A stretch of 64,000 nt of DNA from positions 310,001 through 374,000 of the forward strand of contig VLTN01000004.1 in assembly GCA_008330645.1 (NCBI GenBank). Direction: 5' to 3'. Below the pieces are notes generated by a model, which ran no database searches, had not been told where the DNA came from, and was given only the letters and a program-made list of their open reading frames with translations. Shown piece after piece: positions 45,499 through 51,943 of the stretch (position 1 is its first letter; every line of letters begins with the position of its first letter). The translations under genes and the position numbers were made by a program. This DNA is from Cafeteria roenbergensis (taxonomy: Eukaryota > Sar > Bigyra > Bicosoecida > Cafeteriaceae).

Positions 45499-46926
45499 AT
45501 GGCGGCCGCGCTGTCGCCGCTCGCCTGGGCGGATGCGCTCGACGCTGAGCTGTTTGAGTCCGTGCTGCCTTTCTGGCTGGCGCATTCGGAGGACGCCGCG
45601 AACGGCGGCTTCTTCGACTGCCTGAAGGCCGACGGCGGCGTGTTCGATCGCACCAAACACGTGTGGCTACTGGGGCGGGAGGTGTTCATGCTGGCGCGCA
45701 TCGCCAACGAAGCGACAGACGCGCAGATGCACTTGCTGGCGCGCGCCTCGGCTCGAGGCCCGGCGCCGGAGGGCGGCGATTCGGGAGCCGCAGCCGACGG
45801 CAGTGCTACCGTCAGCTCCCCTTCGATCAGGACCATCGAGCCGTCGCGGGAGGGGCTGCTCGCGGCGGCCAGGCGCGGACTGGACTTTCTGCGGCGCCAC
45901 GCCATCGACCCCGCCACCGGGCACGTTTGGTTCGCGCTCTCGGAGCGCGGCGAGGCCGTGGCTGCACAGCGCAAGCCCTTTTCAGCGGCCTTTCTGTCCA
46001 TGGCCATGGCCGAGGTGGCACGCGCGGACCGGGACGAGACGCTGTTCGCCGAGGCCTGCGCGTGGCTCGAAACGTTTTGCCGCTGGTCGGAGGACCCGTC
46101 GCTGTTGCGTGGGCCTCCCCCGCCCGGCGCGCCGGCGTTGAGCCCGCTGAACGTGCCCATGATCGAGCTCAACCTCATCTCTGAGCTCTCCAAGTTCTTC
46201 GGCGACGCCAAGGAGCGGGACGGCTGGCGGGCGGAGCAGAGAGCAAAAGCGGTGGCCGCGATTCTGGAGCACTGGCACCCGGAGCTCGGCGCCACTCTTG
46301 AGCACTGCGCTCCCGGTGGCGGCGTGGATGCGTCGACAAGCTTGGGCCGCTTGCACAACCCCGGTCACGCCATCGAGGCCGGCTGGTTCGTGATGGAGGA
46401 AGGCCTGCGCACGAAGAATGCGGAGCTGGTGTCCACTGGATGTGCCATGGCAGCTGCGTCGCTCCAGGCTGGATGGGACGGCGGCCTTCCGGGCTGCGGG
46501 AGCAAGGCTTCCAGCGGCGAGAAACCCAGCGCTGCAGGGTGCGCGCCCGGCGGCAGCGGCGGCATTGTGTATTTTCTGGACGTGCTAGGAAGCCAGCCAA
46601 CGCAGCTCGAGGCGGACATGAAGCTATGGTGGCCAGTGTGCGAGGCCATGATTGCCCTCAGCATGCAGTTTGCAGCCACCGGCGACGCCGTTGCAATGGC
46701 GCGGTTCGACGTCGTGGCCCGATTCGCTCTCGAGCACTTCTCCGACGCCAAGCCGGGCCGCGCGGGGCCGGGGGCGGGCGAGTGGGTGGGGTACCTGAGC
46801 CGGGACCTGCGAGTCACGCACTCGTTCAAAGGAGGGCCGTACAAGGGCTGCTTCCACGTGCCGCGAGCCTTGTTCATGTGCGCGTCGCTGCTTCGCCAAG
46901 GTGCGGCCGCGTGGCCTGCGAAGTGA
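45499..46926 (+). CDS. N-acylglucosamine 2-epimerase (AGE/renin-binding-protein family)
   Basis: Single exon of 475 residues with an (alpha/alpha)6-barrel pattern. Members interconvert N-acetylglucosamine and N-acetylmannosamine, an entry step for sialic-acid metabolism. Family motifs are in order: FWLAHSEDAANGGFF, KHVWLLGREVFMLA, LNVPMIELNLISEL, LGRLHNPGHAIEAGWF (catalytic His region), ADMKLWWPVCEAM, and SFKGGPYKGCFHVPRALF near the end. Human RENBP is about 427 residues; the extra length here is two Ala/Gly/Pro-rich insertions (about 85-115 and 330-360). The ATG at 45499 places the first helix correctly. Further open frame lies upstream to 45169 but would overlap the neighbouring gene's start. 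Related cellobiose epimerases exist, so the exact sugar is not certain. Confidence 0.85.
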   Translation: MAAALSPLAWADALDAELFESVLPFWLAHSEDAANGGFFDCLKADGGVFDRTKHVWLLGREVFMLARIANEATDAQMHLLARASARGPAPEGGDSGAAADGSATVSSPSIRTIEPSREGLLAAARRGLDFLRRHAIDPATGHVWFALSERGEAVAAQRKPFSAAFLSMAMAEVARADRDETLFAEACAWLETFCRWSEDPSLLRGPPPPGAPALSPLNVPMIELNLISELSKFFGDAKERDGWRAEQRAKAVAAILEHWHPELGATLEHCAPGGGVDASTSLGRLHNPGHAIEAGWFVMEEGLRTKNAELVSTGCAMAAASLQAGWDGGLPGCGSKASSGEKPSAAGCAPGGSGGIVYFLDVLGSQPTQLEADMKLWWPVCEAMIALSMQFAATGDAVAMARFDVVARFALEHFSDAKPGRAGPGAGEWVGYLSRDLRVTHSFKGGPYKGCFHVPRALFMCASLLRQGAAAWPAK

Positions 46927-47264
46927 CGAGGGAGTGCCCTCTCTGTCCCTTGCTCCCCTCGCCTCGCTGGTCCCGGCAGGCAGGGGGCGGCGGGCGTGAT
47001 GCAGACTCTCGCGACCCAGGCCGAGCAGGGCGCGGCTGGCGCAATCTCCTTGCTTTGCTGTGTTCGTTCTGTGTGCCTGGGGAGCAAAAAGCGAGGCCTC
47101 TCGTTGAGTGCGGCCCGGTGCTGTTCTGCCAGGCCGGCCACGCTGGCGGCAGAGGCGGTTCAATCGTGGCGTGGGGAGTCGGTCAGTCAGCGAGTTGCCC
47201 TGAGCGAGTCAAAGTCAACTCAGGCTTCGCCCTGCGTGCACCCTTTTGTCAAAGGCCGGCTGCC
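46927..47264. other. intergenic region between two plus-strand genes
   Basis: 338 bp between the epimerase stop and the TrhO-methyltransferase start. It contains short T- and A-richer stretches but no clear gene. It should hold the epimerase 3' end and the promoter of the next gene. Confidence 0.5.
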
Positions 47265-49889
47265 ATGGCCGCCCGCGTCATCTCCTTTTATACGCTGCAC
47301 CGCCCGCGCGCCCACGTGGCCCTGTCAAAGCTGCGCGGCGCGCTGGCGCCGCTGGGCGCGACGGGGAGGGTGTACGTGGACGACGAGGTGAGGCCGCCCG
47401 CTTCGAGCACCCAGCGAGCCTCAGCTGGGGGCTGCCCAGGCACGGGCTAGCGGCCAGGCATGGGGTGCGTAGTGATCCTGTGTGCCAGCGTCCTGCCTGC
47501 CCCCCGTCCGCTTGCCGCTGCCTCGCAGGGCGCAAACGGGCAGCTGGCCGTGCCGAAAGGCAGCGAGGGCGCCCTGCGCGAGGCTCTCCTGCGCCTGCTC
47601 GTCACCGAGGGGGACGTGTTCCAGTGGACGCCAGACAGCTCGCTGGAGCTAGATTCCCCGGAAGAGGCCTTCCGCACGCTGCGTTTGCGGTCGCGACCCC
47701 TGGTCGCAGAGCCCGGCCAGGTCCGCTCAGAGGTGCAGTTCGACCCCGACGACGGCGCCGCCGCGCTGCCCGGGGACTGGCACGCAATGCTGGACGACGC
47801 GAAGCTGGTGATGGACTGCCGAAACTACTACGAAACGACGATTGGCACGTTTGACACCGGAGTGGACAAGGACAGGTTTGTCCCGGTGATGACCGATACG
47901 CACATGGACGCCTTCGGGGTCGTGGAGGACGAGCTCCAGCGAAGGGGCGTCGACAAGGACAGCACTGTGCTTCTCGCCTGCACGGGAGGCATCCGCTGCG
48001 AGCGGCTGGTGCGGCAGCTGCGAGGAAAGGGGTACTCCAAGGCGACCGCTCTCCGCGGCGGCATCGTGGCCTACACCAACGCGGTTCGGGAGGGGAGCCT
48101 TCCCGCTTCCGGCTTCACGGGGTCGAATTACGTGTTCGACGGGCGCGGTGCCGTTCCCGTTGACGGGCAAGACCTCGCCCGTTGCCAGCACTGCGGGGCC
48201 CCGGCAGCCAAGGCGCTGAATTGCTCCAACAAGGCCTGCGGGCTCGTGCTGGTGCAGTGTGGCGCGTGCGCAGCCGCCCTCGCCGGCGCGTGCTCGCCGG
48301 CCTGCGCCGCAACGAGCCTGCTTACCGAGGAGGCTCGGCGGGAGCACGCCGCCGGCACCCTCTCCATGGTGGTGCGCGACCGCGTTCACAGCATGGCGTG
48401 GGGCGCGGTCTCCACCGGCCTCTGGATCCTCGACCCCGCAGCCCTGGGCGGCGACCGCAGGGGCATGGGGCCCTCGCCCGCCTTTTCGGCCCCTGGGCCC
48501 GCCTCGCCTGCCTTCCTCGCCCGCATGGCGACGCAGGGGGGCTTCCAGGCCGACCGCCTCGGCGCCTACATCCAGGGCCTCCACGAGGCAGGGGGCCACG
48601 AAGACTCTGCGCTCGAGGGCTCCACGTCGGGCAGCAAGCCAAGCCAAGGCTGTTGCGGGGGCGGCGGCTGCTCCTCGCGCCCTGCGCTGCCCGAGCTGCC
48701 GGCGGAGCTCGCCCAGCAGGCCCAGAGCGCGCTTCCCAGCCTCAACGATGCCATCCCGGAGGCCATCGCAGGGCAGACGGTCCACAACCCCGCGCTGCGG
48801 CGCTTCGCCTGGTGGGCGCCCTCACAGGCGGACGGAGGCGAGTGGCGCCGACCCGAGCGAGTGGCGCCGCCCGCGCACGCAGCGGCGCAGGTGCAGCGCC
48901 GCGTGCGATCGGTGGCCATGTCGCACATTACGGCCGTGGCCTCGGCCGCCGTGGCCGGTCAGCCGGGGAGCGGCCGCACCTGTGCGTCGGGCGCGCGGCG
49001 CGCGTCCACGTTGGCCTCTGCATCCCGCGGGGAGCAGGCCGGCGAGGTGCCTTTTGGCGGCTGGGCGGCGGCCATGGAGGCGCCGCACCCCGTCCTGGCC
49101 ACGGTGATGCGGCGGGCAGAGGCCGCGTGGGGGATGCGCGCCCGCACCAACGCATCGCACCCTCACACCCTGCGGCTGCTCTCGGGACTCGCGGCCTCCG
49201 CCGTGGCGAGGGCCCCGGCGGCGTCATCCTCGGGACAGATCGGGCGGCGAGTGATGCTAGACCTGGGCACCCTTGGGGGCGCCTCGGCGGCAGCGCTGTC
49301 CATGGGCGCGGCAGCTGCGGCAGGCGCGGCGCAGCTGGGGGTCGTGTCCGTCGACCTGGACCCAAAGTGCGGCGCGGCGGCAGCAGAATCTCTGAGGGCT
49401 GCCGAGGAAGAGGCCGGGATGACGCCGGGCGCCCTCTCAGGGCGCGTTCAGTTCGTCACGGCGAGCGCCCTGGATGCGGTGCGGGCCATCGCAGCGGAGG
49501 GGCGGTCTGTTGCCGTTGCCTTTGTCGACGCCGGGAAGCGCGACACGCGCCCCCTGCTGGAGCTCCTCCTGGACCCGGAGGGTGACCAGCCGATGCTGGA
49601 GGTCGGCGGCGTGCTGGTCTTGGACGACGTGCTGGTGGGAGAGCGGTCCGTGCAGGACGCGGAGGGCGACCCCGAGGGCGCGGCCAAGGCTCGCAGTGTG
49701 CTTGCCCGTGCCGGTGCTAGCATGGACGAGGCCGTCGCCTGGCTCGCCGCCTCGCCGGCGATGGACCCATCCCGGGCCACGGGCAGCGGCAGCGATGCTG
49801 GGGCCCCGTTCTTCGTGTGCGTGCCTCTGTGCTCCGTGCGGGGCGAGGCTGCGGACTCCGCCGCGCTGCAGGTGACCCGCGTGCGCTGA
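47265..49889 (+). CDS. TrhO-type tRNA uridine hydroxylase fused to an O-methyltransferase (TrmR/OMT-3 like)
   Basis: Two exons, 47265-47387 and 47529-49889, join in phase 0 (donor GTGAGG) to give 827 residues. The first third is TrhO (YceA/UPF0176; human TSTD2 is related). It has an N-domain VISFYTLHRPRA...RVYVDDEGANGQL, split by the intron, then a rhodanese domain with VMDCRNYYETTIGTF and the active site CTGGIRCE (Cys192), then a Cys-rich tail (CQHC...C..C...). TrhO makes 5-hydroxyuridine at tRNA position 34. The C-terminal 270 residues are a class I methyltransferase of the OMT family 3 type, with LDLGTLGGASAAAL (motif I), GVVSVDLDPK, VQFVTASALDAV, VAFVDAGKRDT and GGVLVLDDVLVGE. Bacterial TrmR, of this type, methylates that hydroxyuridine to 5-methoxyuridine. 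The fusion is one open frame with no break between the parts. The coupled tRNA role is inferred; the methyltransferase could act on another catechol-like substrate. Confidence 0.85.
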
Positions 49890-50123: not shown

Positions 50124-51035
50124 TCACTGGAGCGCCTCCTCCTCGCGCAGGTACTCACCCACGTCGCTCTGGTGCAGCACCGCCATGGCCGTGCCATCGA
50201 GGTCCTTGAGGCGGTCTGCGGCCTGCGCGGCGAGGCCGAAGCCAAGGGGCGCGTTGGACATGGACAGGACGATCACGCCCGCGTTCTGGGGCATGTCCTC
50301 CGTGATGCGCTGCACGCCAGCCTTGATGATGTGGTTGCCGTACAGGAAGGTCATCTCGCTCGAAGGCTTCACCCACACCTTGTGCTGCGGGAATCGCGAC
50401 GTGAAGGCAAGGGAGAGGGCTCGGGGGCAAGCGATGAAAGGTGGGCGCGACCTCTGTTTCGGCGGGAGCGAGCAGCCGGACGGCCACAGCACAGCGCGCG
50501 CAGCAACACTGCGGGTCGAAGCATCCAGTAGGCGGCACCCAGGGCACGGCGGGCAGGCCCCGCGCTCACCTTGGCGTACTGGGCCAGGTACTCGAGGCAG
50601 GTGACCTTGAGGTGGAACTTGCCCGACTTGGTGAACTTGCCGAAGCAGGTCCCGGCCGAAGCGAGGTGCTTGCGCGGGAAGCTCGCGGCAAGGCGCATCA
50701 TCCTCTCGGACAAGTAGAAGACACGGTCGCGGTGAAGGCGGAAGCAGAAGCGCTCGTCCTTGCGGTCCACGAGGAAGCGCACATTGCGGCCGATGCTGCG
50801 AGCACGCAACGGAGACGGGGAGAGCTACCAACGGCAGTGAGGCATCGAACGCAGCCAGAGTGCTGCTGCGACGAGGCGAGCCTCGCGCGCAGCCAGGCGC
50901 GAGGACGGGCGCTGGGACGAGACCACAGCGAGGCGCTGGCCTTGGCCTGTGGCGGCCGCGACCCCCCCAGAAGACTCACTACAGGGCAAGCTTCTCGAAC
51001 ACCTTGCGGGTCTCGTCGTCGGTCAGAGGGCGCAT
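50124..51035 (-). CDS. NIP7: 60S ribosome subunit biogenesis protein NIP7
   Basis: Three exons (minus): 51035-50980, 50795-50570 and 50384-50124, with introns of 184 and 185 bp and GTGAG donors. The joined protein is 180 residues, the same length as human NIP7. It begins [24 protein letters not shown] and includes [31 protein letters not shown] and HKVWVKP, then [20 protein letters not shown] and a C-terminal [13 protein letters not shown]. It has an N-terminal domain and a C-terminal PUA RNA-binding domain. NIP7 acts in the nucleolus in late pre-60S maturation and 27S rRNA processing. Identity is clear along the whole length, which also confirms the splice sites. It diverges from the short-chain dehydrogenase gene. 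Confidence 0.97.
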
Positions 51036-51202: not shown

Positions 51203-51943
51203 ATGGCAGCGGCAGCAAGCGTGGCCAAGTCGATGCTCATCACCGGGGGATCCAGTGGCGTGGGGGCCGCGCTTGCGGTCCAGGCAGCGACCCGGGGGTA
51301 CAAGCTGATGATTGTCGGTCGGAACGCTGACGCTCTGGCCAAGGTCGCCGAGGAGTGCCGCGGCGCAGGCTCCAGCAAGGTGCTCACTCAGGTTGCGGAC
51401 GTCAGCAGCGTGCCTGACACGGAGCGAGTTCTGGCCGCGACGACGGAGGCGTTTGGCTCTCCATCCGCAGTGATCCTGAACGCCGGCATGAACCGCCCGG
51501 GTGCCGTGGACGCCACTACCCCCGAGGACTTTGACGCAGTCATGGGGGTGAACGTGCGCGGCGTGTACCTGTATCTGCGGTCCGTGCTGCCGCTGATGAA
51601 GGAGGCAGGACGGGGGCAGGTCGTGGTGACCTCGAGCGTGCTGGGCGAGCGCACCAGCGGCGGCGCCTCCCTGTACTGCGCGTCCAAGTTCGCTGTGCAG
51701 GGCATGGTGGGCAGCGTCCGCAAGGAGCTGGCTGGCAACCCGGGGGTGAAGGTGGGCACCGTCATGCCCGGTGCCATCGCGACGGCGTGGTGGACTGACG
51801 AGAAGCGCGGCGGCAAGCGCTCCTCCACTCCGGACCTGTCCAAGATGTTGACGCCGGACGCCGTGGCAAGCGCGATCTTGACCATGGTGGAGCAGCCCGA
51901 GTCCAGCGACATCGACAGAATCGTGCTCGAGCCCGCAGCCTGA
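51203..51943 (+). CDS. short-chain dehydrogenase/reductase (classical SDR)
   Basis: Single exon, 246 residues, a complete classical SDR. Motifs: cofactor-binding TGGSSGVG near the N-terminus, VGRN at the end of strand 2 (Arg there suggests NADPH), ADVSS, LNAGMNRPG (NAG motif), N in MGVNVRGVYLY, catalytic Ser in VTSSVLGER and YCASK (Tyr and Lys), then a P-G-AI stretch. The ending DIDRIVLEP resembles the YdfG/serine-dehydrogenase branch. It would reduce or oxidise a small hydroxy or keto compound in the cytosol; the substrate cannot be told from sequence. No signal peptide or membrane helix is visible. Confidence 0.85.
   Translation: MAAAASVAKSMLITGGSSGVGAALAVQAATRGYKLMIVGRNADALAKVAEECRGAGSSKVLTQVADVSSVPDTERVLAATTEAFGSPSAVILNAGMNRPGAVDATTPEDFDAVMGVNVRGVYLYLRSVLPLMKEAGRGQVVVTSSVLGERTSGGASLYCASKFAVQGMVGSVRKELAGNPGVKVGTVMPGAIATAWWTDEKRGGKRSSTPDLSKMLTPDAVASAILTMVEQPESSDIDRIVLEPAA

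Follow-up and report, generated by a model that had tools for sequence, protein, structure and literature searches.

Can a eukaryote carry out in a single protein the two steps that convert the wobble uridine of tRNA into 5-methoxyuridine? The question is raised by a gene of the bicosoecid Cafeteria roenbergensis located at positions 47265-49889 (plus strand) of a 64,000-nucleotide stretch of DNA (the window; assembly GCA_008330645.1, contig VLTN01000004.1, positions 310,001 to 374,000 of the forward strand). TrhO is the tRNA-U34 hydroxylase that forms 5-hydroxyuridine (ho5U34), and TrmR is the methyltransferase that turns ho5U34 into 5-methoxyuridine (mo5U34), a mark known from bacteria. An earlier note, made from the letters of the window alone, had described the gene as a TrhO fused to a TrmR-like methyltransferase of the OMT-3 type that would perform both steps. 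The Cafeteria gene is a real, conserved and divergent member of a family of TrhO-O-methyltransferase (OMT) fusions that is common among algae and has already been noted, and it suggests that a tRNA modification of bacteria may also be formed in eukaryotes.

A Single Gene Encodes Both Domains

The fusion gene contains two exons that encode a product of 828 amino acids.

47265..47387, plus strand: exon 1, beginning of the acylphosphatase-like domain at the N terminus of TrhO, MAARVISFYTLHRP...VYVDDE (spliced frame; strain protein P0003)
47388..47528, plus strand: predicted GT..AG intron, 141 nt (boundary sequences; identical junction in P0003)
47529..49889, plus strand: exon 2, remaining TrhO, linker and methyltransferase, through the stop codon (reading frame)
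48345..49076, plus strand: linker, with blocks common to the window protein, P0005 and P0006 (alignment A1; model of the 809-residue frame)

The open frame 47460-49889 (plus strand), taken without exon 1, accounts for 809 residues, and splicing of exon 1 over the intron keeps the frame and provides the N terminus MAARVISFYTLHRP. Both the start and the junction match those of the strain protein P0003 (FNF27_00842, Cafeteria roenbergensis), whose N terminus differs by one residue, and the frame 46440-47450 shows no Met from the stop of an upstream epimerase gene to the MAAR of the fusion gene. Three Pfam families scored above their cut-offs in the 809-residue frame, i.e. Rhodanese (24.5 bits), Rhodanese_C (59.3 bits) and Methyltransf_24 (27.2 bits), and the presence of TrhO- and OMT-type domains in one open frame was thus confirmed by the frame, the splice, the strain protein and Pfam. 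Because further Cafeteria copies are 97-99% identical to the window protein, and because P0005 and P0006 (51 and 41% identical, respectively; alignment A3) encode the two domains, joined by a similar linker, in a single frame, the fusion is regarded as more than a chance arrangement. The window protein, P0005 and P0006 are hereafter called bicosoecid-type, a label coined here.

The linker between the TrhO domain and the methyltransferase spans about 244 residues, and its predicted local distance difference test (pLDDT) values were mostly below 50 in the model of the 809-residue frame. An intron placed in the linker by the model of P0003 was not adopted; the omitted stretch is present in P0002, P0004 and the window, and it partly matches P0005.

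The window has a GC content of 66-78% and lies on contig C4 of a 36.3-Mb genome; for the published assemblies of C. roenbergensis, the size is 34-36 Mb and the GC content 70-71% (PMC6972860).

The TrhO Half

47688..47696, plus strand: R-S-R, the two Arg being the counterparts of K112 and R114 of E. coli TrhO (alignment to E. coli TrhO)
47781..48080, plus strand: rhodanese domain, PF00581, residues 108-207 of the 809-residue frame (Pfam)
47979..47999, plus strand: CTGGIRC active-site loop, E. coli C200-C206 (alignment)
48120..48308, plus strand: Rhodanese_C, cysteine-rich, PF12368, 59.3 bits (Pfam)

According to passages of PMC6599085, residues C200, T201, G203 and R205 of E. coli TrhO are essential, G202 and C206 are dispensable, and K112A barely rescues activity whereas R114A does not rescue it at all. 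Five of these six mutation-sensitive residues are kept in the window protein, including the counterparts of all four essential loop residues, and the sixth, K112, is replaced by Arg, so that both basic positions are occupied by Arg. The alignment therefore bears out the intact CTGGIRCE site that had been claimed. The product of exon 1 aligns to the ISFYKY..GRVYL region of E. coli TrhO, and its addition brought a UPF0176_N match of 25.3 bits, slightly below the cut-off of 26.2. Hence, the window protein resembles E. coli TrhO (YceA) in its CTGGIRC loop, basic surface residues and Rhodanese_C region, but the E. coli protein stands alone and its ho5U becomes 5-carboxymethoxyuridine (cmo5U) (PMC6599085).

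In a 58-row tree, 17 fused and three bicosoecid-type TrhO halves formed one clade (98/99), which contains fused halves of red algae, diatoms and bolidophytes and joins E. coli-type TrhO (100/98). The TrhO halves of the Cafeteria and algal fusions share ancestry. The six eukaryotic rows of TSTD2 type, which include a second Cafeteria gene, were placed elsewhere in this tree.

TSTD2-like proteins share with the window protein a TrhO-type core with CTGGIRC, but they differ in their place in the tree, in showing no methyltransferase part and, in two aligned rows, in lacking a counterpart of R114. The Cafeteria representative (C21:257423-257560, L004) has the CTGGIRC loop, lacks the R114 counterpart and carries no methyltransferase part in its 550-residue frame. 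A passage of PMC10135228 states that no functional information is available on TSTD2.

The Methyltransferase Half

49077..49886, plus strand: class I O-methyltransferase domain, OMT-3 fold (alignment, model)
49257..49280, plus strand: motif I, LDLGTLGG, S-adenosylmethionine (SAM) binding; the Tyr of the following GYS is Ala (alignment)
49527..49538, plus strand: DAGK, counterparts of TrmR D133 and K136 (alignment)
49623..49628, plus strand: Asp-Asp, in place of the Asp-Asn of TrmR (D159-N160) and of the other rows shown that are not bicosoecid-type (alignment)

The methyltransferase half was predicted with a well-defined class I OMT fold containing the SAM motif and DA.K. It shares with B. subtilis TrmR (YrrM, 5zw3) the class I OMT-3 fold and residues D133, K136 and D159, and these residues and the motif I core are retained in all three bicosoecid-type methyltransferases. 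TrmR D133, D159 and N160 are presumably metal ligands; the three bicosoecid-type rows keep the first two and have Asp at the third, whereas five other fused rows shown keep all three. The window protein matches Methyltransf_24 and gave no Methyltransf_3 match at E up to 0.1; for P0005, the Methyltransf_24 match (22.9 bits) is below the cut-off of 26.3.

Cafeteria also has a separate OMT-3 gene (C12:522079-522702, L001) whose DADK and DN motifs are of the usual form; a hydrophobic stretch lies ahead of it in its frame.

A Family of Eukaryotic Fusions

Phytophthora sojae, Phytophthora ramorum and Phaeodactylum tricornutum are eukaryotes. Fusions of YceA (TrhO) and TrmR were noted in these three species in 2019, under the term bacteria, in a paper whose available passages treat the fusion in one sentence and a figure legend and use it as a clue to TrhO function (PMC6599085). 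As in Cafeteria, both activities are named in one gene of stramenopiles, and the comparison is with that description rather than with sequences found under those names. Since the fusion had already been noted in Phytophthora and Phaeodactylum, the architecture is not new, and as far as was found the family is uncharacterised. The Cafeteria form differs from known fusions in its much more divergent methyltransferase and in the linker blocks HSMxWxAVxTGLW and LRRxAWWxPS, which the window protein shares with P0005 and P0006 and which none of the red algal and diatom rows in alignment A1 contains.

Other proteins that carry both domains number at least 120. In a first search for relatives, 17 of 22 matches had a methyltransferase part (16 by precomputed Pfam assignments and P0005 by alignment), three being Cafeteria strain copies. 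A larger search gave 348 matches at 1e-20, and the best 120 of the 348 all carry Rhodanese_C and Methyltransf_3 according to the Pfam column. Named sources among the matches listed are Gracilariopsis, Gracilaria, Agarophyton, Chondrus, Pyropia, several diatoms and Triparma; one fused row is labelled Alexandrium tamarense, a label not checked for contamination. A scan of viral_contigs with P0005 as the only query yielded two pattern matches, neither of which encodes a relative.

The literature was covered mostly as titles, openings of abstracts and passages, and within it we found neither a study of the fusion itself nor a report of mo5U in a eukaryote. The statement of the earlier note that the modification is not established in eukaryotes agrees with the latter result, but ho5U at position 34 is listed for coconut tRNA, in a table whose marks for detection and prediction are not legible in the available text (PMC10298058). 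The same source reports two TrhO homologues, one predicted to be chloroplastic, and in the text available names mo5U once, as a purchased standard. In passages of other sources, a review assigns ho5U to Bacteria and Eukarya (PMC7694415), 5-hydroxyuridine derivatives are described as specific to bacterial tRNA (PMC10516636), and M. tuberculosis is credited with a TrmR homologue and no known hydroxylase (PMC10531406).

A Putative Two-step Wobble Uridine Enzyme

We consider, with a probability of roughly 0.58, that the fusion is a bifunctional wobble-uridine enzyme that forms mo5U34 in two steps. The TrhO-type half would use O2 to hydroxylate C5 of U34, yielding ho5U34; the fused OMT-3-type methyltransferase would then methylate the new hydroxyl with SAM, yielding mo5U34, and the linker would hold both steps within one chain. 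This reading draws on the two domains in one frame, the TrhO residues, the ancestry that the TrhO half shares with the other fused halves, and the OMT-3 fold with D133, K136 and D159. From these we infer the hydroxylation itself, ho5U as the methyltransferase substrate and the cellular location.

Several observations weigh against this reading. The NCBI TrhO equivalog NF001133, whose cut-off is 170 bits, matched the window protein with 109.2 bits when exon 1 was included (residues 1-318) and with 94.6 bits without it; among eight other fusions, one passed (P0012, 179.7 bits), P0008 reached 169.7 and the others gave 79-161. Because the cut-off is not reached, we speak of a TrhO-type half and not of an NCBI-grade TrhO. 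In the methyltransferase half, N160 is replaced by Asp, the motif I Tyr by Ala and the Asp of the C-terminal DG by Arg, and these replacements, together with the missing Methyltransf_3 match, make the earlier description of a methyltransferase with all its motifs an overstatement. SynOMT- and caffeoyl-CoA-type OMT-3 enzymes outscore TrmR, the best-scoring solved relatives including SynOMT (3cbg), SafC (5lhm) and human COMTD1 (2avd), for which no tRNA activity is named in the material examined. Finally, no RNA or enzyme data for any fusion-bearing organism were found in the literature.

The trees also bear on this point, and the Cafeteria methyltransferase lies in them on a long branch, within the long stem of the bicosoecid-type sequences. 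In a quick 106-row tree, 23 fused and the three bicosoecid-type methyltransferases formed one clade (99) and TrmR was placed elsewhere; a careful 60-row tree put the bicosoecid-type sequences beside TrmR (52/91). A careful 90-row tree, built on an L-INS-i alignment, grouped them with the fused P0008 (93/66) and with diatoms (93/66); TrmR adjoined these methyltransferases inside the fused set (93/78), and fused, bicosoecid-type and TrmR sequences lay on one side of a branch (92/96.6). Topology tests did not reject, with 60 rows, fused plus bicosoecid-type (p 0.30), fused plus TrmR (p 0.34) or fused alone (p 0.40) and, with 90 rows, fused plus bicosoecid-type (p 0.31) or bicosoecid-type plus TrmR (p 0.29). 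In all of this, the bacterial rows had been selected by likeness to the fused methyltransferase, and Firmicutes were represented by PDB chains only. Kinship with TrmR is thus not established, being neither shown nor rejected by trees in which long branches are in play. Of the proposed TrmR-like two-step enzyme, the real fusion, the TrhO-type half, the OMT-3 fold and D133/K136/D159 stood; the TrmR identity of the C-terminal domain was neither confirmed nor refuted, as the scores favour other OMT-3 groups and the trees disagree on the placement of TrmR. The refuting condition set in the earlier note, a grouping of this domain with catechol or caffeoyl-CoA methyltransferases instead of TrmR, was accordingly decided in neither direction.

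An OMT-3 gene adjoins trhO in five of 38 bacterial trhO loci (L104, L106, L125 and the near-copies L131 and L132). The loci came from 12 of 35 genomes and from 27 of 98 genomes of the phylum of G001, with one locus in both, and because the 35 genomes had been chosen for an OMT-3 like the fused methyltransferase, the count is partly biased, which lessens what it can say for a two-step enzyme; L104 and L106 fall in these genomes, and outside them the count is three of 26. By a rough estimate, chance would give well below one such case, with few OMT-3 genes among thousands. From the OMT side, two of 80 loci have trhO within 1.5 kb: in an alphaproteobacterial single-cell genome (L007:1450-3034) a SynOMT-type OMT-3 gene and trhO abut on one strand, and in a Phormidium metagenome-assembled genome (L020:1384-3048) the two are convergent. 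For each of the five adjoining OMTs, the SynOMT-type reference that matched best gave a score in the range 134-202 bits; B. subtilis TrmR gave 53-73, and no TrmR row exceeded 88.

The replaced residues and the long bicosoecid-type stem would also fit an active TrhO half joined to an altered or weakened methyltransferase, which in Cafeteria might make another ho5U derivative, act on another substrate or serve mainly as a tRNA- or SAM-binding domain. We regard this as possible though rather unlikely, given that three divergent sequences retain D133, K136 and D159 along with the core of motif I, that the fold is well predicted and that the fused order is maintained. It is improbable that the protein is no tRNA enzyme but a rhodanese-type sulfurtransferase joined to an O-methyltransferase that acts, like the caffeoyl-CoA enzymes, on small molecules. 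The Pfam name of the domain is simply rhodanese, the NCBI TrhO cut-off is missed and small-molecule OMT-3 enzymes outscore TrmR; the placement beside E. coli TrhO, the experimentally tested TrhO residues, Rhodanese_C and the bacterial SynOMT-type genes adjoining trhO argue against it. Least probable by far, two adjacent genes or a faulty gene model might have been read as one frame, in line with the lack of a Cafeteria transcript among the material seen, the doubtful model P0002 with its merged epimerase and the part of the linker omitted from P0003. However, a single open frame is found in the window, P0004, P0005 and P0006, the linker blocks are conserved in frame in three sequences, and six mmetsp-named transcript rows from other organisms (P0055, P0088, P0101, P0112, P0130 and P0131) hold both domains.

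If the two-step enzyme is accepted, RNA modification would proceed through two steps within a single chain, and more than one branch of the OMT-3 enzymes would perhaps have acquired the O-methylation of ho5U. A broader and tentative proposal, which we hold doubtful as a whole, is that red algae, diatoms, bolidophytes and bicosoecids make mo5U34 with one such enzyme. In many algae it would be directed to the plastid, and in Cafeteria it would modify tRNA of the mitochondrion or the cytosol; its methyltransferase would belong to the SynOMT/caffeoyl-CoA OMT branch and have been recruited separately from TrmR, and the bicosoecid form, in which the metal site is altered, might produce yet another derivative of ho5U. 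With a conserved eukaryotic hydroxylase-methyltransferase fusion at hand, mo5U in eukaryotes or their organelles becomes a question open to tRNA mass spectrometry in culturable species.

Possible Sites of Action

The site of action is likely the plastid in at least some algae and the mitochondrion or the cytosol in Cafeteria. Among 120 fused proteins beginning with Met, some of which may be truncated at the N terminus, a hydrophobic stretch occurs close to the start in 43, of which 12 also contain an ASAF-like motif; FVP or FAP occurs close to the start in 15. We take these features, judged by motif alone, as signs of plastid targeting, and some algal fusion proteins accordingly look plastid-targeted. 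The window protein has no N-terminal extension before the TrhO domain; its residues 1-38 include five Arg, one Lys, two His and no Asp or Glu, a basic composition that makes mitochondrial import possible. In 42,000 of the 43,160 bases of the mitochondrial contig C167, covered in five stretches, 20 tRNA genes were found. These include a U34 tRNA for Ser(UCN) and, as a single tRNA in each box, U34 tRNAs for Ala, Val, Pro and Gly; suitable U34 tRNAs thus exist in the mitochondrion, and no more is shown by this set.

The cox1 gene of C167 (L133-L138) has 11 in-frame TGA codons and the contig a tRNA with anticodon TCA, which fits TGA = Trp. In P0012, P0009 and further fusions of red algae and diatoms, a partly conserved N-terminal region (about residues 40-200) precedes the TrhO domain; the Cafeteria protein lacks this region.

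Neighbouring Genes

Immediately upstream on the same strand lies an N-acylglucosamine 2-epimerase family gene (45505-46926; PF07221, 100 bits). The strain model P0002 joins it to TrhO, a merge that was rejected as a probable gene-model artefact because the epimerase frame stops at 46926 and exon 1 of the window supplies the TrhO N terminus. Downstream, the minus strand carries part of a NIP7-like gene (50369-50809; NIP7 pre-PUA domain, PF17833, 62.7 bits) that is convergent with the fusion gene, and a short-chain dehydrogenase gene lies beyond it on the plus strand (51206-51943; PF00106, 150.7 bits).
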